A stretch of 64,000 nt of DNA from Humisphaera borealis (GTDB lineage Bacteria > Planctomycetota > Phycisphaerae > Tepidisphaerales > Tepidisphaeraceae): assembly GCF_015169395.1 (NCBI RefSeq), contig NZ_CP063458.1, positions 2,480,001 through 2,544,000 on the forward strand, in the 5' to 3' direction. The notes below the pieces were generated by a model, which saw only the letters and a program-made list of their open reading frames with translations, was not told the origin of the DNA and searched no databases. The stretch's first letter is position 1; every line of letters starts with the position of its first letter. Positions 11,909 through 23,856 of this stretch are shown one piece after another. The position numbers were made by a program, and so were the translations under genes.

Positions 11909-13744
11909 TCAGTTGATCGTCACCGGGATGCCCGCCGAGTCGTTCGAAAGGTCTTCGCCGATGCCGGGTTCGGCGGCAGTCACCTTTGCCGACAACTCGT
12001 AGACGCCCGAGGCAAGCCCGGCGGGCAGTTGGAGCCGGACGCGCAAAGGCTTATCGGACTGGCCGGGTATGACCTTTCGAGTCGCCACCGTCTTGATCGG
12101 CGTCGCCTCGCCGCCGCCTTGTGGCGTGATGGAAAACGCGACCTCGGCCCTGCCGGAAAACGCGACGGTGCCGAGGTTTCGCAGGTCGAGCGTCAGCGCG
12201 GGCAGCCGGGCACCCGCGGCCGCCGTGACGGACTGTTGCCGGAAGGCCGGCGAGAGATCGACGGTTGCGGCCGCGATCTGCAACGGGCCGGCAGTGGCGA
12301 GATTGTTGACGGTATTGGCATCGGCAGCGTCGCCGGTGACACCAAGCAGTTCGATCTCGACCGTCCGCTCGCCGGCCACCGCCAGCGGGTAGGCGTATCG
12401 AAGGTTGAGATTGACACCGCCACCCGGCTTCAGCGCGAAGCGGCGCGTGGTTTGGGCAAGAACGTCTGACGGAGGTTCGATGCCCGAAGGATCCGTCAGG
12501 CGCAGCCGGACGGTCAGGCGTTCGTTGACCGCGACGGTACCGGCATTCTCGACACGGACTTTCACGACGTCGCGGTCGAGCTGGATTGGACTGGTGGACG
12601 AAGGTCCCTGGGTCAGGGCGATCGCCAGGTCGGGTGGCGACGCGGCAATGCGTGTGACCTGGCCGGCGTGGTATTCGAGCACGTACGCGGCACCGTCCGG
12701 GCCGACGGCGATGTCGAGCGGGCCGCTCAGTCCGGAGGCGACCGGCGACACCTTTCGCGTAGCGATGTCAAACGACTTGACGAAGCCGGAGCCCCAGTCG
12801 GCGAAAAGGTAGTCGCCGGTCATCGATGCCGGGAAGGATACCGTCGCCGTGATCGGAGGTTCATAGAACGCGCCGCCGGCGATCGATGGTCCTGAGACCG
12901 GCCCGCCGCTGCGGTCGTAGGCGAACAGCGGATCGACGTAGCCGTCCGGTACGTCCTGACCGGCTCCGCGTTTGCCCTCGGTGATCGGCCAGCCGTAGTT
13001 GCCGCCGGCGACGCCAAGGTTGATCTCTTCGAAGGAACTCTGCCCGACGTCGTTGATGTGGATCCGGCCGTCGGAGCGGACGGCGAACGTGTACGGGTTG
13101 CGAAGGCCGCGGGCCCAGATCGCCTCCTGCGCGCCCTGAAGGGCTCGGAACGGGTTGTCGTCGGGGATCGAGCCGTCGGCATTCAGGCGGAGGATCTTGC
13201 CGAGCAGGCTGTCGAGCGGCTGCGCGTTGGCCGGGTCGGCATTGTCGCCGACGCCAATGTAGAGTTTGCCGTCGGTCCCGAAGTGGATTGCGCCACCGTT
13301 GTGGTTGGTCGCACCACTCAGGGTGGGCAGATCGATCAGCACTTGCTCGGAAGCTGGTTCGACCGTGTCGCCGGCGACGGTAAACCGGCTCACCCGATTG
13401 TGAACGGTCGGGGTTTCGGTGGTGTAGTGAAGGTAGATCAGGCCGTTCTGGGAAAAGGAAGGATCGAGCGCCACCCCAATGAGCCCGCGTTCGCCCTGGC
13501 TGTCGACGTCGAGCAGAAGGGCAGGATCGGCAAGGGTTGCGCCATCTTTGATGACCCGCAGAGCACCCCCCTGCTGGGCGACGAACAGCCGACCGTCGGG
13601 CGCGAACGCAAACGCCGTCGGCTGGCTTAAGCCGGTGGCAAAAAGGGTGTCGGCAAAGCCGGCGGCGGCAGCAAAGAGACGTCTGGGTTCCAGGCTCTCA
13701 ACGACCTTGTGGCCTGTTTGGGCTCCCGTAGCAAAATGAGACAT
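11909..13744 (-). CDS. Exported glucose/sorbosone dehydrogenase-like propeller with LEPR-XLL motif
   Basis: 611 residues. The N-terminus has VVESLEPRRLFAAAA (residues 14-28), a clear LEPR-XLL motif. A GSDH-type six-blade propeller follows: PTAFAFAPDGRLFVAQQGG, RGLIGVALDP, NHNGGAIHFGTDGKLYIGVGD, GKILRLNADGS, ARGLRNPYTFAV and NYGWPITEG. This is the fold of PQQ-dependent soluble aldose dehydrogenases. The C-terminal about 230 residues are two beta domains of CARDB-like character. It is probably a surface protein oxidising or binding sugars. The start is taken just ahead of the motif; no convincing ribosome site. Confidence 0.82.
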   Translation of the reverse strand: MSHFATGAQTGHKVVESLEPRRLFAAAAGFADTLFATGLSQPTAFAFAPDGRLFVAQQGGALRVIKDGATLADPALLLDVDSQGERGLIGVALDPSFSQNGLIYLHYTTETPTVHNRVSRFTVAGDTVEPASEQVLIDLPTLSGATNHNGGAIHFGTDGKLYIGVGDNADPANAQPLDSLLGKILRLNADGSIPDDNPFRALQGAQEAIWARGLRNPYTFAVRSDGRIHINDVGQSSFEEINLGVAGGNYGWPITEGKRGAGQDVPDGYVDPLFAYDRSGGPVSGPSIAGGAFYEPPITATVSFPASMTGDYLFADWGSGFVKSFDIATRKVSPVASGLSGPLDIAVGPDGAAYVLEYHAGQVTRIAASPPDLAIALTQGPSSTSPIQLDRDVVKVRVENAGTVAVNERLTVRLRLTDPSGIEPPSDVLAQTTRRFALKPGGGVNLNLRYAYPLAVAGERTVEIELLGVTGDAADANTVNNLATAGPLQIAAATVDLSPAFRQQSVTAAAGARLPALTLDLRNLGTVAFSGRAEVAFSITPQGGGEATPIKTVATRKVIPGQSDKPLRVRLQLPAGLASGVYELSAKVTAAEPGIGEDLSNDSAGIPVTIN

Positions 13745-13966
13745 CCGGCCTCCGGGCTGGGGCGACTCGGGATACCGCTCGCCGATGACAGGACGGCAAG
13801 CGCGACGCATCGCCGGCATTGTACGCCGATCGGTGCCCTGAGGATGTAAGCATCTGTCGGCGGCGGCGGTCATCAAAAACCGAGAATCGGTCGGTTACGA
13901 TCCCAAATACCAATGGGCAGTAGTCTCGTGAGCTAAGGCAAATCGTTTCAGAAAGTGAAGGATCGC

Positions 13967-14803: not shown

Positions 14804-16333
14804 TCAGTAGGTACCGATCGCGTAGCCGAGCAGGGCTTTGGCGGTCTGGTCGGCGGAGATTGTGACGTAACCGTCGTTCAGGCCGTCGGTGCAGGTGTAG
14901 GCGTCAACGCCCCACGGGTTTCGCAGGCGAACGCTGACGGGCTTGCCGTCGGAGCCGAGGTTCACCCGGTCCACGGTGTAGGCGTGCATGCCAACCAGGT
15001 TGCTACCGGAGGGTGGCGTGGCGACGGCGAACGTGACCGATTTGCCGGCGTCCAGGGCCGCCGCCATGCCGGCCAGGATCTGTGCGGCGGTGCCGCTCAT
15101 CACGTTCGTCGCGCCCATGCCCAGGGCGCGATAGGACTCGTCCATCCAGCCGCCGTCGATGGACGCGTAGCTGGCGGCGTTAGTTCGGAAGGAGGCCCAG
15201 GCTTTTTCGATCAGTGCGACCCAGAGCGAGCCCTGAGCGCCGAAATTGACATACGCCAGTCCGCCGCCGGTGGCGGTCGGCAGGTCGGCGTCCACGCGGA
15301 CGTAGGCCTTGGTTGTCCCCTTGGTGAACTGCACGCAATAGGTGCCGTCGCCAAGATCGACGATGGTCTGCTTGAGCCAGCCGGGATTGGTCTTGGCGAT
15401 GGAGGACAGGACCGAAAGGAAGTAGCAGCTGCCGATCTGGCCCTGCTGAATGTCGGTCAACTTCGGGCCGCCGTCGGGGAACAGCATGTGGTCGGCGAAG
15501 TTGGTGTAGCCGGTGGCGGCGCGGGTGAAGGTGGGGTCGACTAACTGCTGTCCGAGCAGTTCCTTGGTCGCCGGGATCACCTTGGTGGTCTGCACCATCT
15601 CGACGACGGTCTTGTTCTTGAGTTTGCCGGCCTTGTTGGCGATCTGCTTGACCGTCTTGACCTTTTTGAGTGTGGTCTCGGTTGCCTTGCTGTTGGAGAA
15701 CTCGGAGATGCGGTGGACCGCACCGCCGGCGGTCTCGGCGGGGCTGACGTCGGTGATGACCTCGGCGGCGTCGGTATCGAGCCAGTAGCTGTCGTTGTCG
15801 AGGCCCCCGATGAGCCGGTCGTTGTTGGCACCGCCGACGGAGACGAGGATGTCGTCGCCATTGGCACCGTAGAGCATGTTGGTGCCGGTGCCGCCGTAGA
15901 TCCGGTCGTGGCCGGAGCCGCCGCTGAGAGAATCGTTGCCGGCAGCACCCTTGATGATGGCGTCGATCATGACGCTCGGATCGAGCGTGATCAGGTCGTT
16001 GCCGTTGCCACCGTCGATGTAGAGACTTTTGAAGCTCTTGCTGTAGGTTTTGGACCAGGAGCCGTTGGTGAGGGTCAGCACGAGCCCGGACTGGCTGACG
16101 TCGAGGCGGTCGCCGGCGTCGGTGCCGATGACCCGCAGCTCGATGCCGCCGCTGATGGACGCCTCGGTAATCGCAAACGGCTGGGCCGCGAGGAGCATTC
16201 GACGCTCGAGCGTCTCAACAGAGGCAGCACCATGGCGATTCGACCGATCCATCAGACTTCTCCAGCGACGTCGCACGAGGGAACGAGCCATGGCCGGGTA
16301 CGAGTGGCGCAAGGCGGGATCCTGCTGTGACAT
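14804..16333 (-). CDS. Calpain-like cysteine protease with RTX repeats and LEPR-XLL motif
   Basis: 509 residues. LEPR-XLL variant LERRMLLAAQ lies at about residues 42-51. RTX-type calcium-binding repeats (GGNGNDLI, GAAGNDSL, GGSGHDRIYGG, GANGDDIL) span residues about 100-170. The C-terminal half is a C2 (calpain) peptidase core: QGQIGSCYFLS with the catalytic Cys near residue 302, GMHAYTVD with His near 448, and RNPWG with Asn near 470, so the triad is complete. It is probably secreted or on the surface and calcium dependent. ATG at 16333 chosen; an in-frame TTG eight codons upstream and an ATG at 16291 are alternatives. Confidence 0.85.
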   Translation of the reverse strand: MSQQDPALRHSYPAMARSLVRRRWRSLMDRSNRHGAASVETLERRMLLAAQPFAITEASISGGIELRVIGTDAGDRLDVSQSGLVLTLTNGSWSKTYSKSFKSLYIDGGNGNDLITLDPSVMIDAIIKGAAGNDSLSGGSGHDRIYGGTGTNMLYGANGDDILVSVGGANNDRLIGGLDNDSYWLDTDAAEVITDVSPAETAGGAVHRISEFSNSKATETTLKKVKTVKQIANKAGKLKNKTVVEMVQTTKVIPATKELLGQQLVDPTFTRAATGYTNFADHMLFPDGGPKLTDIQQGQIGSCYFLSVLSSIAKTNPGWLKQTIVDLGDGTYCVQFTKGTTKAYVRVDADLPTATGGGLAYVNFGAQGSLWVALIEKAWASFRTNAASYASIDGGWMDESYRALGMGATNVMSGTAAQILAGMAAALDAGKSVTFAVATPPSGSNLVGMHAYTVDRVNLGSDGKPVSVRLRNPWGVDAYTCTDGLNDGYVTISADQTAKALLGYAIGTY

Positions 16334-16357
16334 CGAATAGAAACGTGGGTTGGTCAA

Positions 16358-16716
16358 TCACGGAGAGGAGCCGATAACCGCCTGTTTCGACGGGATTCCA
16401 GGGTGTGCGAAATGCAAACACCCCCGGCAAGATTGCCGGGGGTGTCCGTGGACCTGTGAGAAAGAAGCGGAGCGCGTTCGCGTCGTCGCGCGGGCCGGAA
16501 CCATTCGACGCTCCCGCCCGCGACCGCCGCCCTACAACCCGGAGACCGGGCGTGTGGCGTACTAGTCACGAACGAGCCGTAGATATGGCCGCTCGAACCA
16601 CCCGTCGGAGTTACGATCCGAAGGGCTGTCGGCGTGGCCGTGGCGATTGCCGGCTGAGGCGCTCCATAGGGGTCGCCCTCTGCCTGCGATCAATACGCCG
16701 AGGCCGTTTCCGGCGA
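16358..16716. other. Interval between flagellin and calpain-like gene
   Basis: 359 bases without a gene I can support. It holds the flagellin terminator (16418-16445) and should hold the promoter of the calpain-like gene. The open frames across it are arginine-rich shadows. Confidence 0.55.
16418..16445 (-). terminator. Terminator downstream of flagellin 1
   Basis: ACACCCCCGGCAA pairs perfectly with TTGCCGGGGGTGT (13 bp). On the minus strand it is followed by TTGCATTT. It lies 270 bases beyond the flagellin stop codon, so the mRNA would have a long 3' tail. Confidence 0.7.
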
Positions 16717-18156
16717 TTACCGCAACAGGCTGAGGGCGGCCTGAGGGGCCGAGTTCGCCTGTGCGAGAATCTGAGTCGCCGACTGCGACAGAATCTGCGA
16801 CCGCGTGAGCGACGCAGTTTCGGACGCGAAGTCGGTGTCGCGGATGGCGCTTTCTGCGGCCGACGCGTTTTCGAACGCGACGCCGAGCGAGTTCACCGTC
16901 GAACCGATCGTGAACCGCTGGAAGGCGCCCAGCCGGCCGCGAAGGCTGCTGACCTGCTTCGCCGCGGCATCGATGATCTTCTGTGCACCCGAAAGGTCGA
17001 CGGAGCTGAGGCTGTTCGCCCCGCCGCTGCCGATCGAGCTGAGGAAGCCAACGACACCGTTGCCGAGGCTGGAGCTTGACACCGACTTGATGCCGATGTT
17101 GGCCTTGCCGTTCTCGTTGACCTTGGAGCCGAGGCTGAACTTCGCGCCACCCCCAGTGATACCGAAGGTTTTGCTGTTTCCGTTGTTCAAACCGGCGGTC
17201 GTCGCACCATTGTAACCGTTGCTCGTAAGCTGGAATTCGACATCCAGCGACGACGAGCGGTAGGTGACGTCCAGGCCGCTGACGGTCGCCGCTGCACCGT
17301 TGATGGTAACGGCCGCATCGGTGCCGCTGGCTTTGCCGTTGGTGCCGCCGTTGATCGTCAACGCCTGCCCCGCGACGGAGCGGACGGAAACAAAGTTGGA
17401 GCTGCCATACTCCGAGGCCGCAAACGTTAGTGTCGTGCCGCCCGCCGACGCGGTTACTCCGGTCACCGAAGAGATCGCGTTGATGGCGGTGGCGATGTCG
17501 GTGATGCTGGCGCTGCCGGCAAAGCTGAGCTGCTGGGTGCCGTTGGCACCGGCAACTTCGAGCGTGGTGCCGCTGGCGGTCAGCCCTGAGCCGGTGAAGG
17601 TCACCTTGCCCTGGGTGGCGCTGTTGCTGACGGAGACCGTCACGCTCTGGGTCGCTCCACCCGGAATCTGGGCGGAGTTGACCTGGATCGACCCGAAGGC
17701 GCTGGTGGCCGCGCCGCTGGTCGAGTAGTCGTAGTTGCCGTTCAACAGCTTGGCGCCGGCGAAGCTGGTGTTATCGGAGATACGGTTGATGGTGCCCAGG
17801 ATCGAGTCGACCTGGAGCTGGTTTGCCTGACGTTCCTCAGCGCTGAGGCCTGAGCTGTTGGCGGTCTGGTTGACCAGGCCCTGCAGTTCGGTCACCAGGG
17901 AGCTGACTTCCGTCAGACCACCCTCGGCGGTACCAAGGATGTTGCTGGCGCGGCCGGCGTTCTCGATTGCGGTCGAGATGCCCGCCTTTTCACCGCGAAG
18001 GATTTCGCTGGCGATAAGGCCGGCGGGGTTGTCCTTGCCGCTGTTGATGCGGACACCGGTGCTGAGCCGTTCAAGGCTCGAGTTAAGCTGGTCGTTGTTC
18101 TTCTTCAACACGCGCTGAGCGATCAGCGACGTGACGTTGGTGTTAATTCTGCTCAT
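16717..18156 (-). CDS. fliC: Flagellin 1
   Basis: 479 residues. The N-terminal D0/D1 helices are classical (SRINTNVTSLIAQRVLKKNN, then RLSTGVRINSGKDNPAGL). The C-terminus closes the coiled core (ESAIRDTDFASETASLTRSQ, ending ALSLLR). The central domain of about 200 residues is rich in G, S and T and holds one flagellin-IN type motif (near residues 210-270). It is the filament subunit, exported by the flagellar secretion system. Upstream lie a second flagellin, csrA and fliW. The start codon is directly preceded by an SD-sequestering hairpin described separately. It differs from flagellin 2 throughout the centre, so it is not a recent duplicate. Confidence 0.97.
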   Translation of the reverse strand: MSRINTNVTSLIAQRVLKKNNDQLNSSLERLSTGVRINSGKDNPAGLIASEILRGEKAGISTAIENAGRASNILGTAEGGLTEVSSLVTELQGLVNQTANSSGLSAEERQANQLQVDSILGTINRISDNTSFAGAKLLNGNYDYSTSGAATSAFGSIQVNSAQIPGGATQSVTVSVSNSATQGKVTFTGSGLTASGTTLEVAGANGTQQLSFAGSASITDIATAINAISSVTGVTASAGGTTLTFAASEYGSSNFVSVRSVAGQALTINGGTNGKASGTDAAVTINGAAATVSGLDVTYRSSSLDVEFQLTSNGYNGATTAGLNNGNSKTFGITGGGAKFSLGSKVNENGKANIGIKSVSSSSLGNGVVGFLSSIGSGGANSLSSVDLSGAQKIIDAAAKQVSSLRGRLGAFQRFTIGSTVNSLGVAFENASAAESAIRDTDFASETASLTRSQILSQSATQILAQANSAPQAALSLLR

Positions 18157-18157
18157 C

Positions 18158-18185
18158 GGACTGTCTCTCCATGACTGTGCAGTCC
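18158..18185 (-). promoter_or_regulatory. Hairpin over the flagellin 1 ribosome site, candidate CsrA operator
   Basis: On the minus strand GGACTG and CAGTCC (6 bp) enclose a 16-base loop containing the ribosome site ATGGAGAG; the stem ends one base before the ATG. Two GGA triplets are present, one at the stem base and one in the loop. Within the loop a second AGTC can pair instead with the 5' GACT, freeing the ribosome site. CsrA of Bacillus subtilis binds two GGA sites in the hag leader, one over the SD; this arrangement is similar. Confidence 0.55.
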
Positions 18186-18439
18186 CTCGCTGACGCGAAG
18201 TGCTGCAGCCTGCGCGGTGGCATCAGAATGACGCCGGACGGCGATGGTTCCGAGTTTGGACCGGTTTGCTGCCGGTTGGGTGTTGGGTGTTCGGAACACG
18301 CCGCGATCGCGCTTTGTTTTTCATTCCCTTGAGAGGCCCGAGGAGCTTTTCTGCCCTGCTCCCCGCGTCGTTCGTCGCTTCGTCGCTTCAGCAGTTCCGC
18401 CATCTTTCGGCAGAAGCGCAGCGGGTCGAACTCGCATCG

Positions 18440-18589
18440 GCCGAGGATCAAGGGCTACGGATCCTCGGCAACCTTGTCCGGTCTGCGTCCCCCTTGCGGG
18501 ATCGGCGGTTGCCGGTTCGGCTCTTGTGGTGAGTGTGCCTCCTTTCTCACAAGTCCTGGGTTGGTGACGCGTTGGCACGTCGGCAACCC
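18440..18589 (-). promoter_or_regulatory. Structured block in the flagellin 1 leader
   Basis: Three perfect helices are readable. GGGTTG/CAACCC with an inner GACG/CGTC pairs at 18558-18589. CGGCAACC/GGTTGCCG (8 bp) pairs 18507-18514 with 18466-18473. GCCGAGGATC/GATCCTCGGC (10 bp) pairs 18460-18469 with 18440-18449. The last two share four bases and cannot form fully together. Between them and the first lies AAAGGAGG in the loop of a GTGAG/CTCAC hairpin (18530-18551), with no start codon after it. A structured leader or riboswitch-like element is an inference. Confidence 0.35.
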
Positions 18590-18814
18590 GAAGGCGCCCG
18601 TCTCTCCGAGGGGGTCGCCGCCAGAACCGCCGTGGCGCAGTCACTAACTTCACCCGCAGCATCGACCCGGATTTGGGGGGTACTTTAGGTGCGCCGCAAT
18701 TTGCAAATGGACGCGTGGTTATGGGCGAACGCGGAAGAACACCTACTTGCCGCCCCGGAATGCCCCCTGCTTCCGCACCCGCACAATTACCGGACCGCAC
18801 CGCCAGAAACAGAG

Positions 18815-18845
18815 AAAGGGCGGCCTCCGTCGTCGGAAGCCGCCC
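18815..18845 (-). terminator. Terminator of flagellin 2
   Basis: GGGCGGC-TCCG pairs with CGGA-GCCGCCC (11 pairs and one A/C mismatch) around a TCGT loop. On the minus strand it is followed by TTTCTCTGTTTC. It starts 31 bases after the flagellin 2 stop codon. Confidence 0.8.
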
Positions 18846-18875
18846 GTGTCGTTCAGATATTGGGTCGTGCCGCTT

Positions 18876-20303
18876 CTACTGCAGCAGCGACAGGACCTGC
18901 TGCGGCGTCGCGTTGGCCGTGGCCAACACGCTGGTGCCGGCCTGGGTGAGGATCTGCGACCGTGTCAGGGCCGCGGTTTCGGCGGCGAAGTCAGCGTCGC
19001 GGATCGAGCTTTCGCTCGCCGTGACGTTCTCCATCGCGATGTTCAGCGAGTTGATATTGGTGTCGAGCGTGTTCTTCTCGAACGCGCCCAGACGCCCTCG
19101 AAGCACCGCGACCTGTCGGATCGCGGTCTCGAGAATCTTGCTCGCATCGGCCGAGTTTCCGCCGACCAGCGTCGACGTGCCACCGGTCACGACGTCGTTC
19201 AGGAAGCCGACCGTCTTGCTTCCCAGCTTGCTCGCGGCGACCGACTGAATGCCGACGTTGACCTGCTGGTTCGAAGTCACCTTCGCACCCAGCTGGAACA
19301 ACGCACCGCCGCCGGTGATCGCGAACGACGTCTGGCCGATGCCGAACGTTTCGTCGATGGTCATGCTCATCTCGAGCGACGACGTGTTGAGCTTGAGGTT
19401 CAACCCGTCGCCGACGGTGAGCGCGCCGTTGACCGTCGCGGCGACGTCCTGCCCGATGTCACGAGCCTTGCTATTGCCCGCGCTATCGACCGTTCCGAAC
19501 ACGCCGCTTTGTGCAGTCACGGAGACGAACTGCCGAGATCCGTACCCAATCGAGTTAAAGGTGATCCCGCTCGTCGCCGCCGAAGCGGTGATGTACCCGG
19601 CCGTGACGCCGGTAGCGTCGGTCAGGGTGTTCACTGCGTAGGCGATCGCAGAGGTTTTGGTGCCGGCAGTGAACTGCAGGACCTGCACCCCTTCGACGCC
19701 GCCGATCTCCAGCGTGACACCGCTGGCAATCGCCGAGCCGCGGAACTGAAGTTCCGCCGTCTTGGCGCTGGTGATGACATCCACCTGCACCGGGATGCTG
19801 GCGCGGGTGCCGAAGTTGGCCTGGCTGATCTCCAGCGACGTGACGGCCGAGCCGCTGACACCGCTGGTGACGTAGTCGAGACTGCCGTTGATCAGCTTGA
19901 GCCCCGCGAACGTGGTGGTGTTCGCGATGCGGGTGATGCTCTGGACGGCCGAGTCCACCTGCAGCTGATTGGCCTGGATCTCTTCCGGCGACAGTGCGCC
20001 GGTGTTGGCGGCCTGGACGACCAGGCTCTTGATGTTCAGCAGGAGTGAGGCAACCTCATTGAGGGAGCCTTCGGCCGTGCTGATGACATTGCTTGCGCGC
20101 TGCGAGTTATCGATGGCTTGGTTGATGCCTGAAATCTCGCTGCGAAGGCCTTCACTTGCGATGAGACCCGCGGGGTCGTCCGCCCCGCGGTTGATGCGTA
20201 AGCCCGTAGACAGGCGCTGAAGCGTCGAACCCAACTGCTTCTGGGACCGCTGCAGACCACGCTGCGCGGTGAGTGAGGCGACGTTCGTATTGATGCGGGC
20301 CAT
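18876..20303 (-). CDS. fliC: Flagellin 2
   Basis: 475 residues. It begins ARINTNVASLTAQRGLQRSQ, continues with RLSTGLRINRGADDPAGL, and ends with an intact C-terminal core (ESSIRDADFAAETAALTRSQ, then LSLLQ). The central domain has a flagellin-IN type motif (near residues 185-245) and a distinct sequence from flagellin 1, so the filament may be composite. It is directly downstream of csrA by 214 bases and has its own terminator. The start follows GGAGGAT with a candidate CsrA hexaloop. Confidence 0.97.
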   Translation of the reverse strand: MARINTNVASLTAQRGLQRSQKQLGSTLQRLSTGLRINRGADDPAGLIASEGLRSEISGINQAIDNSQRASNVISTAEGSLNEVASLLLNIKSLVVQAANTGALSPEEIQANQLQVDSAVQSITRIANTTTFAGLKLINGSLDYVTSGVSGSAVTSLEISQANFGTRASIPVQVDVITSAKTAELQFRGSAIASGVTLEIGGVEGVQVLQFTAGTKTSAIAYAVNTLTDATGVTAGYITASAATSGITFNSIGYGSRQFVSVTAQSGVFGTVDSAGNSKARDIGQDVAATVNGALTVGDGLNLKLNTSSLEMSMTIDETFGIGQTSFAITGGGALFQLGAKVTSNQQVNVGIQSVAASKLGSKTVGFLNDVVTGGTSTLVGGNSADASKILETAIRQVAVLRGRLGAFEKNTLDTNINSLNIAMENVTASESSIRDADFAAETAALTRSQILTQAGTSVLATANATPQQVLSLLQ

Positions 20304-20306
20304 GTC

Positions 20307-20320
20307 AATCCTCCATGATT
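20307..20320 (-). promoter_or_regulatory. Hexaloop hairpin over the flagellin 2 ribosome site, candidate CsrA operator
   Basis: AATC-ATGGAG-GATT: a 4-bp stem with a six-base loop that fits the ANGGAN loop preferred by CsrA. It covers the SD and ends three bases before the ATG. Confidence 0.5.
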
Positions 20321-20517
20321 AGAGATGGCGCTGCCGGGAAATCCTCCCGGCGGGTGGTGGCCGCTATCCTGCGGCCGATCGAGGTGGCGAGATGTTGACG
20401 GATGGTGGGAATCGTCAGCTCCGGATTGTTTTCCTTGCGGACGTCGGCATCAGGTTGTTTTGATGGGGTCAGCATCTGTTTCAACTTTGCTTCGAACGTT
20501 CCAATCCGGTTCCGAAC

Positions 20518-20775
20518 TCATTGCTTCTTATCCGGCCCCTCCTCCGGCGGCTTCTTGCCCAGCCTTGCGATGCCCGGAATGTCTTCCGGCTTCACCTGGG
20601 CGGCCGCACGGTTCTCGCGGCGGATCGCGTCGTACACTTCTTTACGGTGTACGCTGATCTCCCGCGGGGCCGTGATTCCCAGACGCACCTTGTCTCCGCG
20701 GATGTCCACCACGGTTACCTCGATGTCGTCTCCGATCATGATCGTCTCATCCCGCTGACGGGATAGCACCAGCAT
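20518..20775 (-). CDS. csrA: Carbon storage regulator CsrA
   Basis: 85 residues; the first about 52 are the CsrA fold ([20 protein letters not shown], then [20 protein letters not shown]) with Leu4 and Arg44, key RNA-binding residues, both present. The remaining about 30 are a charged tail ([10 protein letters not shown], then EEGPDKKQ), longer than in enteric CsrA. It is a dimeric RNA-binding protein that blocks ribosome access at GGA hairpins. The start at 20775 follows GGAAGGAG. It is flanked by fliW upstream and flagellin downstream, the context in which FliW titrates CsrA in other bacteria. An AGGAAGGAG pair of GGA sites before its own start suggests autoregulation. Confidence 0.96.
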
Positions 20776-21056
20776 GCTGGCTCCTTCCTGCGTGGCGGGG
20801 GGCGCATCGGCCGCATGGACCTTGATCGTTCCTCGATCGCGGTACCGTCGGCAAATGCACCGCCCGTCGGCACGGGTCGCGGCGTAAAAAGCCGGCCGCG
20901 CCATGGGTTCACGCGACGTCCGTGTCGCGCGGCGATGTCGACGGCCTTCCATGGCCGAACAACACCGCTGGTGGTGCACTGTCGGTCACCTTGATGTCCG
21001 TCTTGCCGACGGCATCAGATGCCAACAACTCTTGCTTGGGTTGAATGCGCTTCGCC

Positions 21057-21506
21057 TCAGGCCGACTTGGCCAGCGGAACGTCGGCGTGCAGCTTCAGCA
21101 GCGGCTGCCGGGTCGTCCACTTCTTTTCGGTGAGCACCACCTGCTGTGCCAGGCGGTTCTCGGCGTTGACGACGATCGGCCCGAGCAGGTTGCCCGTAAG
21201 CCATTCGCCGACCTTGTTGCAGATGACAAAGGACTGAATCGTCCCCGTGTCCGAAATGCTCAACTCCTCGCGCGTTTCCTCGCGAATCGGGACTTCATAG
21301 TCCTTGAAGAAGATGCTCGGATCGGTCACGACAAATGCCAGCGTCGAATCGTCCACCGACTGCAGCCAGAAGAAGTAGTTCTCCTGACTGGTCTGGATCA
21401 GGGCGAACTGGCGATGCTCGGGAAAGCCGAGCAGCCCGTTGGGGAAACTGATGATGCGGTCGTCGTCCACCGACAACCGTCCGAATCGCGAACTGAGGAT
21501 CTCCAT
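21057..21506 (-). CDS. fliW: Flagellar assembly factor FliW
   Basis: 149 residues, the usual FliW length. Recognised by IISFPNGLLGFPEHRQFALI near the N-terminus, followed by FFWLQSVDDSTLAFVVTDP, which are the conserved strands of this single-domain beta-barrel protein. FliW binds flagellin or CsrA; when flagellin is exported FliW is free to inhibit CsrA. The start at 21506 has the SD inside a GGA-loop hairpin, unexpected for a CsrA antagonist and suggestive of feedback. It lies between flgL and csrA. Confidence 0.94.
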   Translation of the reverse strand: MEILSSRFGRLSVDDDRIISFPNGLLGFPEHRQFALIQTSQENYFFWLQSVDDSTLAFVVTDPSIFFKDYEVPIREETREELSISDTGTIQSFVICNKVGEWLTGNLLGPIVVNAENRLAQQVVLTEKKWTTRQPLLKLHADVPLAKSA

Positions 21507-21830
21507 CTGTGAACTCCGTTCTTTCGGGCAGACTCCAGGGTTTTGGGCCGACGCCGGGATGCCGTACCGGCTTGTCGACCGCGGGCGCTGTCCGATTCGC
21601 CCGCCCGATCCCGACCGTTGGCTCGCCATCATGGCGTCGCATCCGGCCGATCGGTCCCGCGAACTCCGCCGCGGGGGATTCTTCGTCTACTTCACTCATC
21701 TGCCGCAGGACTTGCGCCTCGCGGGCAGATGATGCGCTCTGATTCAGATTCTACTGTGATTGCTGCAGTCGCAATGCACATCGCTTATCACACAGCAAGT
21801 CGCGTGCCATTAACAGGTGCCGGTTTATCT
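21507..21830. other. Interval between flgL and fliW
   Basis: 324 bases with no gene. The part near flgL (21740-21830) is richer in A+T, for example TGTGTGATAAGCG on the minus strand, and could hold a promoter for fliW-csrA-flagellin. I cannot assign a sigma factor. Confidence 0.4.
21511..21521 (-). promoter_or_regulatory. GGA-triloop hairpin over the fliW ribosome site
   Basis: GAAC-GGA-GTTC, a perfect 4-bp stem, ends four bases before the fliW ATG; the loop and closing pair are the SD itself (CGGAG). Same design as the hairpins before flgA, flgF and flgJ. Confidence 0.5.
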
Positions 21831-23768
21831 CTAGCCCAGAAAATCCATCAGCGACAGGCTCAGTGATCGCCCACCGGCCTGCATCGCAGCCTGAAGCGAT
21901 GTCTGCAGCGTCTCGAACTTCGCGATCGCACTCGTGAAGTCCGTATCCTGCAGCTCCGACAGCAGCGCCTGCGTGGCAATGTTCTGGTCGTCCAGCCGGT
22001 CCTTGCGGGACTCGAACTCCTGCACGCGGGCACCCGTTTCGCCCCGGGTGCGGACCACGCGGTCGTAGTCCGTCTGCAAATGCTCGCCGCTTTCGGTAAT
22101 CGCGGCGGCGTCGTTGTTCTCGAGCGCGTCACGAAGAGCGGCCAGGTTCGCAAACACGCCCTGCGCCGCGACGGGATTGACGTCACGGCCTGTGAGGACC
22201 GTCCCCGTCGCCGTCACGTCCAGGCCGAGGTCTTTGAGCGCGGTCGAGAAGTTCAACGCCGTAATGCCCGGCGCGCCGACACCGCCTGCGGTGTCGGTCA
22301 GCACGATGCCGTTGCCGGTCGCGGCGACCGACGCGGTCATCGTGCCTAGCGTGTCGGCGGTATTGATCTTGTCGATGACGTCCTGGATCGTGGCCGCACC
22401 GTCGAGATCGACGGTGAAGTTCGTTCCGTCACTTCGGGTAATGCTCAGGTCGTCGCCGGCGACGGTCTTGACGCCCTTGCCGAAGTTCAGCTCCGAAAGT
22501 GGGGTGGTCGCGTTCAAGCTGCGCACGCCCAAGTCCGCTGCGGTGGTGCCGCCGTTCTCCGACACTGTCATCTGTGCCCCCTGGTTGGGGTTGATGATGT
22601 CGATGCCGGTGCCGGCAGCATTGATTCGCGCCGTCACGTCGGCCCCCGAATCGTTGATCGCGTTCAGCAGATCGCCGACCGTCGCGCCCAGGCGTAGCGG
22701 CGGCGAGGTGAAGTTGACTGTGACTGTCTTGGTGCCGCTGGTGATCGTCAAACCACTTGCCACGTCGATGCCTGCACCGCCGTTGAGGGCGGTCAGAGGG
22801 GTCAGATCGGTAACGAGCGGTTGCGTGGCGGTGCCGGTAACCGGCACGCCCGCCCCGCTACCCGTGGTGGTCAGGATGCCGAGTTGCGACGCCATCGACC
22901 CGCCGCTGACTTCGTTGACGGTGATGTTGTCGCCGCCGCCGCCGGTCAGGACCAGGTTGCCGCCGCCGATTGCCGCGGTGATTCCGCCCACCGCCGCTGC
23001 GTTGATCGCCGTCACGACATCGCCAAGGGTGTCGGCGTGCGACAGGTCGACGGTTGTGGAAATGGTCCCGTTGCCCACGACGATCGATCCAGATTTGACG
23101 CCTTCGTTCGCTGCGCCGCGGAGGTCGGATAGCCGCGTGGCGGCCGTCACGCCGGGGGTCAGGTCGGCGGTGCCGGTGATCCGCGTCGAGGTCGCGCCGA
23201 ACACCTCGGCACCATTGGCCATGAACGACAAGCTTGCGTTCTCGTCGACGCGGTTGAGGAGCGTCGTTCCCGACCCGACAAACTTCACGCCACCGTTCTC
23301 GCCAACTTCGAACGGGGGCTCGGTCGCCTTGTCACCGCCGAACAGGTAGACGCCGTTAAACTGCTTGTTGCCGAGCGAAACCGCCTGTTGGTAGATGCTC
23401 TGCACGACCGCGGCGGCAGACTTGCGGGCGTCGGGCGTTACATCCGATCCCACGTTCGCCGATGCGATCGTCTGCGCCTGCTGGAGCAGTGCGCTCAGGT
23501 CGCCCAGCGTGGAGTCGACCTCAGAGAGCTGGCCCTTGGCGGCATCGATGTTGTCGGCGTACGCCTTGCGCTGCTCGAGTACCTTCTGAAGCTGGATTGC
23601 CGCGGACGAATCCCCCGGGTCATCGCTCGGCCGATTGAGCCGTTTGCCGGTCGTCAATTCGTTCTGAACCTGCGCAAGCTGAGCCTGCGTGCGCGAGACG
23701 CTCGACGTGACAAGGCTGCTCCTTGTCAGGTTCGAGACGCGAGCGAGGTTGAGCGGCAGAACTGACAT
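21831..23768 (-). CDS. flgL: Flagellar hook-filament junction protein FlgL, enlarged
   Basis: 645 residues, about twice the enteric FlgL. The N-terminal core is flagellin-like (TQAQLAQVQNELTTGKRLNR, followed by PSDDP) and the C-terminus closes it (SELQDTDFTSAIAKFETLQT). The extra central part (about residues 230-520) has three flagellin-IN type motifs: TLGDVVTAINAAA, TVGDLLNAINDSG and TIQDVIDKINTAD, each followed by NG/GG-rich strands. It connects hook to filament as HAP3 and lies downstream of flgK by 84 bases that hold a palindromic repeat. The start at 23768 has no SD. Confidence 0.93.
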   Translation of the reverse strand: MSVLPLNLARVSNLTRSSLVTSSVSRTQAQLAQVQNELTTGKRLNRPSDDPGDSSAAIQLQKVLEQRKAYADNIDAAKGQLSEVDSTLGDLSALLQQAQTIASANVGSDVTPDARKSAAAVVQSIYQQAVSLGNKQFNGVYLFGGDKATEPPFEVGENGGVKFVGSGTTLLNRVDENASLSFMANGAEVFGATSTRITGTADLTPGVTAATRLSDLRGAANEGVKSGSIVVGNGTISTTVDLSHADTLGDVVTAINAAAVGGITAAIGGGNLVLTGGGGDNITVNEVSGGSMASQLGILTTTGSGAGVPVTGTATQPLVTDLTPLTALNGGAGIDVASGLTITSGTKTVTVNFTSPPLRLGATVGDLLNAINDSGADVTARINAAGTGIDIINPNQGAQMTVSENGGTTAADLGVRSLNATTPLSELNFGKGVKTVAGDDLSITRSDGTNFTVDLDGAATIQDVIDKINTADTLGTMTASVAATGNGIVLTDTAGGVGAPGITALNFSTALKDLGLDVTATGTVLTGRDVNPVAAQGVFANLAALRDALENNDAAAITESGEHLQTDYDRVVRTRGETGARVQEFESRKDRLDDQNIATQALLSELQDTDFTSAIAKFETLQTSLQAAMQAGGRSLSLSLMDFLG

Positions 23769-23770
23769 TT

Positions 23771-23856
23771 GTTGGGTCCGCCTTGGCGGACGCGATTGCA
23801 AACGACTTCAGATTGTTCCGATCAACACCCCGGACGTCCGCCAAGGCGGACCCTAC
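23771..23856. repeat. GTCCGCCTTGGCGGAC repeat pair at the flgK end
   Basis: The left copy (23771-23794) and inverted right copy (23835-23856) face each other across 40 bases. Each copy is itself a palindrome (GTCCGCC, TT, GGCGGAC). The TAG in the right copy, read on the minus strand, is the flgK stop codon. The left copy ends two bases before the flgL start codon. Confidence 0.85.

Follow-up and report, generated by a model that had tools for sequence, protein, structure and literature searches.

A putative CsrA-type hairpin at the flagellin-1 start site of Humisphaera borealis and signs of further conserved structure in its long leader

Introduction

How the ribosome gains access to the flagellin-1 start site of Humisphaera borealis is a question raised by the letters directly in front of the gene, where the minus strand immediately 5' of the ATG reads GGACTGCACAGTCATGGAGAGACAGTCCG. 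The gene lies in the window analysed here, a 64,000-nt stretch of a genome of 7.19 Mb in a single contig, and belongs to one cluster in which Pfam recognises flagellin 1, flagellin 2, CsrA, FliW, a flagellin-like protein (ORF 21831-23801), FlgK and FlgN (Table 1); flagellin 3 is located away from this cluster. The csrA reading frame as listed opens at 20979, and the conserved start, MLVLSRQ, is at 20778. A hairpin at the Shine-Dalgarno sequence (SD), together with neighbouring csrA and fliW genes, makes the locus fit control by CsrA and FliW as in Campylobacter flaA. Which hairpin this would be, and what else the leader of flagellin 1 may contribute, is considered below.

Table 1. Features of the flagellin locus in the window, with the basis of each assignment.
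Feature	Position	Strand	Basis
Flagellin 1	16717..18156	(-)	Pfam Flagellin_N 8.6e-29, Flagellin_C 2.2e-18
Far GGACUG/CAGUCC and near GACU/AGUC hairpins (earlier proposal)	18158..18185	(-)	letters present; chance-level, unconserved, not predicted in context
E, putative SD hairpin of flagellin 1, GUC-(AUGGAGA)-GAC, A-N-GGA loop = ribosome site	18163..18175	(-)	comparison
D, hairpin ACCGG-(CAGCAAA)-CCGGU	18260..18276	(-)	loop motif and covariation in relatives
C, UCUCAAGGGAAUGAAA, candidate upstream CsrA site, loop AGGGAA	18319..18334	(-)	covariation across leaders
B, hairpin CCGAGGAU/AUCCUCGG, CCCUU in loop (18450-18454)	18441..18468	(-)	loop complementary to AAGGG of C
A, 5' landmark GGACUUGUGAGAAAGGAGG	18538..18556	(-)	found once in genome (15-letter core)
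Flagellin 2	18876..20303	(-)	Pfam Flagellin_N 3.3e-30
SD hairpin of flagellin 2, UAAUC-(AUGGAG)-GAUUG	20306..20321	(-)	same hairpin class, covarying stem
Two stem-loops upstream of flagellin 2, GGA in loop, not full A-N-GGA	20333-20351, 20360-20375	(-)	sequence
csrA	20518..20778	(-)	PF02599 3.5e-25, residues 69-120 of long ORF matched
fliW	21057..21632	(-)	PF02623 1.4e-35

Results

The start site was likened in the initial annotation to a translational on/off switch made of two mutually exclusive hairpins, a far one that buries the SD and a near one that leaves it free. The complementary segments are real and they overlap (GGACTG/CAGTCC, 18185-18180 with 18163-18158; GACT/AGTC, 18184-18181 with 18176-18173), and in a 51-nt fragment the far hairpin prevails, with a partition-function probability of 0.90. 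However, this probability drops to 0.00 in fragments of 76, 141, 246, 381 and 471 nt, the ACUGCA letters being captured in the longer fragments by a more stable hairpin with an upstream CUGCAG, and the near hairpin stands at 0.00 in all six fragments from 51 to 471 nt. Shuffling the flanks also produced an SD-enclosing helix of 6 bp or longer in 160/500 trials, and folding z-scores at the flagellin-1 start site range from -0.24 to -1.57. Comparison with related flagellin leaders shows conservation of neither pairing: in 18 relatives, helices around the SD hairpin reach 3-5 bp at most, at unrelated positions (the sole congener in the set, G001, is outside this comparison, its contig stopping at the start codon), while the near pairing, GACT before AGTC, is confined to the window in the 19-leader alignment. 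Because the helix length is at chance level, the pairings are not conserved and both hairpins vanish at 76 nt and beyond, we consider such a switch unlikely, indeed very improbable.

The pairing that is conserved at this site is another one, GUC/GAC, which immediately flanks the SD loop and overlaps letters of both hairpins proposed earlier. The sequence GUC-(U)ANGGA(R)A-GAC recurs in 18/19 flagellin-1 leaders, the remaining one carrying the variant GUCACAGGAAGAC, and by this comparison the flagellin-1 start site appears to sit in a CsrA-type hairpin, E, rather than in the two hairpins of the initial annotation. Two ideas in that annotation thereby survive in part. Its suggestion of CsrA-type control at the SD is borne out insofar as the SD is part of a CsrA-type GGA hairpin, with csrA and fliW close by, but not with the named hairpins as its states. 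The two GGA triplets that it saw as fitting CsrA dimer binding likewise part company in the 19-leader alignment: the GGA of ATGGAGAG is conserved, whereas that of GGACTG is not and has no counterpart beside the SD hairpin, so that GGACTG was dropped as a first CsrA site.

The stem of E in the flagellin-1 group is short (3 bp) and invariant, and its covariation support therefore comes from comparison with the paralogues. We searched 101 genomes, 72 of which gave a match, and took leaders from 110 flagellin genes among the matches listed (30 loci and 80 stretches); 109 remained once a single gene that lacked usable upstream sequence had been set aside. Eighteen of these have the flagellin-1 form, 75 have another A-N-GGA located 4-14 nt from the start and 16 show no ANGGA close to where the start is annotated. 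Of the 75 non-flagellin-1 leaders, 54 close a hexaloop ANGGAN directly with at least 4 bp, compared with a mean of 21.3 and a maximum of 31 in 2000 trials in which the 3' flanks were swapped among leaders; among ORF starts of the window, 2/36 do so, and flagellin 2 itself accounts for one. E is in this respect a member of a set of SD hairpins that extends over flagellin leaders throughout the class. Across 71 distinct sequences the SD hairpin (consensus AUCANGGAGGAU) has a covariation score of 0.368, against 0.152 (sd 0.018) for shuffled alignments, none of 500 of which reached it, and at most 0.093 for slid structures; two-sided changes occur at 5/6 pairs of the stem. These counts and shuffles ignore species kinship, and 3/71 rows of the underlying alignment (A1) are shifted and were left as they are. 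Since the rows were selected for A-N-GGA, the invariance of those letters is no result, but the stem is. In the window's own fold E reaches a probability of at most 0.33, and when it is imposed on a 76-nt fragment, the energy lies 2.2 kcal/mol above the minimum.

A pattern scan of the genome itself for the SD hairpin returned six places, with a stem longer than 3 bp at flagellin 2 only; flagellin 3 starts with TTG and is therefore invisible to this genome-wide pattern. The string GGACCGCAGATCC, searched with one mismatch, fell mostly away from flagellin genes and was set aside as uninformative. Two near-identical genes of the same genome (L202 and L204, at ~5.27 and ~7.17 Mb, 202 and 205 aa) each have TCATGGAGGA before the start, with a stem of only 2-3 bp around it.

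It could be argued that the SD hairpin controls initiation by its structure or by temperature alone, without CsrA, since a stem directly around the SD, which attains 7-8 bp in some species, would by itself slow initiation. This we regard as improbable. The A-N-GGA loop is kept while the stem changes (with the proviso that its invariance within the 75 leaders is built in by selection), A-N-GGA is found in 75 + 18 of 109 leaders with the stem closing exactly on it, and csrA and fliW are members of the same gene cluster. Among the genomes of the family, fliW was found in 22/26. The four others are G009 and G025, which also gave no flagellin match, G001, which is 65% complete, and G006, which has flagellins and the E hairpin but, at a stated completeness of 91%, yielded no FliW; conversely, G021 has fliW and gave no flagellin match. 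In G015 one flagellin reading frame (C242:6755-8176) is interrupted by a single in-frame TAG.

Candidate CsrA sites are not limited to the SD. Farther upstream than the SD hairpin, 21/91 non-flagellin-1 leaders have an ANGGAN hexaloop closed by at least 4 bp; in 200 dinucleotide shuffles this count averaged 1.0 and never exceeded 5. Flagellin 3 of the same genome has such an upstream site, CCGGU-AAGGAU-ACCGG, and flagellin 2 is preceded by two stem-loops of a looser kind (Table 1). Together, an upstream hexaloop and the SD hairpin would make up the two-site arrangement known for CsrA.

Flagellin 1 has a long leader, which, judging from the alignment of 19 leaders, appears to carry further conserved RNA structure beyond E. 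In the flagellin-1 leaders of one family we recognise an element of 150-400 nt that consists of a 5' landmark, A, and three hairpins, B, C and D. With at most one mismatch, A occurs at 19 places in 26 genomes, 12 of which, among them all 8 exact copies, lie at flagellin 1; its distance to the ATG is ~150-320 nt in relatives with a recognisable A and 397 nt in the window, and the flagellin-1 leaders of G018 and G010 contain no recognisable copy. As a class-wide motif A was rejected, the seven places fetched from other families (six with one mismatch, that in G151 with none) apparently not being flagellin leaders, and so was A as the start of an upstream reading frame, the ATG that follows it shortly in some leaders being absent, by eye, from the window and others. 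A G+C-rich hairpin seen by eye right after the flagellin-2 stop codon (18816-18850) is probably the terminator of flagellin 2, in which case transcription of flagellin 1 would start from a separate promoter located between that hairpin and landmark A. On the far side of flagellin 1, the proteins encoded at 14804-16357 and 11909-13876, both on the minus strand, show by eye an N-terminal TLERRMLL and SLEPRRLF, respectively, which we take to be an LEPR/LERR-type sorting motif; the former also contains GQIGSCYFLSVLSS, presumably the active site of a calpain-type cysteine peptidase.

The three hairpins share a pattern in which loops are more constant than stems. Hairpin B folds in 19/19 leaders with its CCC(U) motif (UCCGU in G006) kept unpaired, and its stem varies freely between species. 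Hairpin C has a covariation score of 0.304, against 0.131 for shuffled alignments (reached in 1/500), over 17 distinct sequences with the loop A-N-GGA-N; G014 was left out of this alignment, having A-N-GGA in another register. The C loop keeps A-N-GGA where N differs (ACGGA in G006, AUGGA in G019). In the window C has only three contiguous base pairs (UCA/UGA) and a probability of ~0.08 or less in its own fold. For D, an NNGCAGA heptaloop on a stem of at least 2 bp is present in 16/19 leaders, and the window hairpin, whose loop deviates (GCAAA), is likely its counterpart. Covariation at D is 0.532, against 0.173 shuffled (0/500), in a set of 23 places picked by loop letters alone, some of them stemless. 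The flagellin-1 leaders of G023 and G002 (L013 and L166) have two CCGCAGA-loop hairpins each, at -83 and -40. Combined into one pattern, C and D match in 7/150 genomes of the class, always at flagellin-1 leaders, and the reversed control gives 0; the window itself is missed, since its C and D deviate. The linker between B and C is another variable, with 104 nt in the window and 94 in G018, against 4-45 nt in the remaining leaders. Alignment A4, from which no count was taken, omits G018.

The loop of B (UCCCU(U)G or CCCUGA) is complementary to that of C (CAAGGGA), and the two loops change together between species: CCCUUC/GAAGGG in G003, CCCCUGA/UCAGGGG in G014, CCCUG/CAGGG in G007 and AGUCCGU/ACGGACU in G006. 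Pairing between B and C from the same species is better than in shuffled combinations, which did equally well in 7/20000 cases for all 19 leaders and in 16/20000 for the 17 without twins, these figures ignoring species kinship. Since the segments had been chosen by visual inspection of the alignment, most notably for G006, the test was rerun with fixed-offset segments and without G006; stricter sets gave 232/20000 (16 leaders, without twins and G006) and 207/20000 (15, also without G019, where the two loops pair poorly at -1.9 kcal/mol). Of 33 positions around C, E and A against which the B loop was scanned, only two stand out, both over the C loop (p 0.001 and 0.0018). In the window taken alone, 857/5000 shuffled B loops pair with C equally well. 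A second contact is suggested by the D loop, whose GCAG, replaced by GCAA in the window, matches a CUGC before B by complementarity in 16/17 leaders, the other one forming 3/4 pairs. The one double change is that of the window itself (UUGC/GCAA); as CUGC moreover overlaps the B stem, we treat this suggestive D-loop/CUGC contact as a lead only.

It is possible, if doubtful, that A, B, C and D form a separate regulatory RNA, sensing for example a ligand or a protein, in which the C loop serves RNA-RNA contact and is no CsrA site. Loops that are more constant than stems in B, C and D, the pairing of B with C and the match of the D loop to CUGC would all suit such an RNA, as would the outcome of the Rfam search, which gave no match at the gathering score in window positions 16000-22000 (with E<=1, one snoRNA match far below its cut-off) and only matches below their cut-offs at 12 related loci. 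What speaks against this reading is that the C loop retains A-N-GGA though N changes, as expected for a CsrA site, and that the pattern searches found no second, non-flagellin copy.

Discussion

The reading that we favour, to which we assign a probability of roughly 0.72 as a whole, is that hairpin E is controlled by CsrA and FliW and that flagellin 1 has an additional upstream site at C, at which kissing between B and C would exclude CsrA. It builds on what was computed here, namely the hairpins and their covariation, a complementarity of B and C that shifts concertedly from species to species, and the finding of both csrA and fliW; from these we infer binding and repression by CsrA, a competition of B with CsrA and roles for D and landmark A. 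In E, the short GUC/GAC stem would present A-N-GGA, which is at the same time the SD, in the loop. CsrA, most likely, binds there and thereby blocks the ribosome. Export of flagellin would then release FliW, which would pull CsrA off, so that flagellin may be made only during export. In flagellin 1 the second A-N-GGA loop, C, lies upstream, with a GGA able to pair with the B loop; kissing of the two loops would hide this GGA, making the kissing and the occupation of C by CsrA mutually exclusive. The distance from GGA to GGA between C and E is ~157 nt in the window, and the bridging range reported for CsrA is 10-63 nt (PMC7652899). CsrA could thus bridge C and E directly only if the hairpins between them shortened this distance by folding.

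A more tentative scenario goes beyond this, and we think it rather less than an even bet: the flagellin-1 leader would be an undescribed structured cis-regulatory RNA in which the B-C kiss hides a CsrA site and D with CUGC helps to set the fold, the fold in turn deciding on CsrA loading, such that flagellin 1 is controlled in another way than its two paralogues. Among the papers listed on CsrA/FliW, flagellin leaders and Planctomycetes, no title or opening of an abstract describes a leader of this kind, subscription papers being mostly outside that coverage. If the favoured reading is true, CsrA control by a start-site hairpin, as in Campylobacter and, with two sites, Bacillus, would extend to a distant phylum with strong covariation, and the flagellin-1 leader would be a case of RNA tertiary contacts deciding whether a CsrA site is open. 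The leader is short enough for direct in vitro work.

Several known systems offer points of comparison. CsrA recognises GGA in short hairpin loops, and its SELEX consensus is RUACARGGAUGU (PMC7652899). In the E. coli glgC leader, an upstream GGA hairpin loop is combined with a site over the SD, as in the arrangement proposed for flagellin 1; the glgC case differs in that the flagellin-1 spacing in the window exceeds the reported bridging range and in that fliW is absent from Gammaproteobacteria, going by the passages of PMC7652899 consulted. Another is the hag leader of Bacillus subtilis, to which CsrA binds at two sites, one of them over the SD, with FliW as the antagonist (PMC7652899). The flagellin-1 leader shares with it the candidate CsrA site over the SD and the presence of FliW, a likeness drawn from the description of hag rather than from its sequence, and the portion of that source used here mentions no B- or D-like element. 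A further parallel is the flaA leader of Campylobacter jejuni, which, according to the sections of PMC4894983 covered, has two ANGGA stem-loops, the second over the ribosome-binding site, with CsrA footprinted and FliW acting as antagonist. Both systems have an ANGGA loop over the ribosome site, compensatory changes in the stem and csrA together with fliW. Unlike flaA, for which the same sections give a 5' UTR of 45 nt and demonstrated CsrA binding, the flagellin-1 leaders described here have a landmark ~150-400 nt upstream and contain B, D and A in addition.
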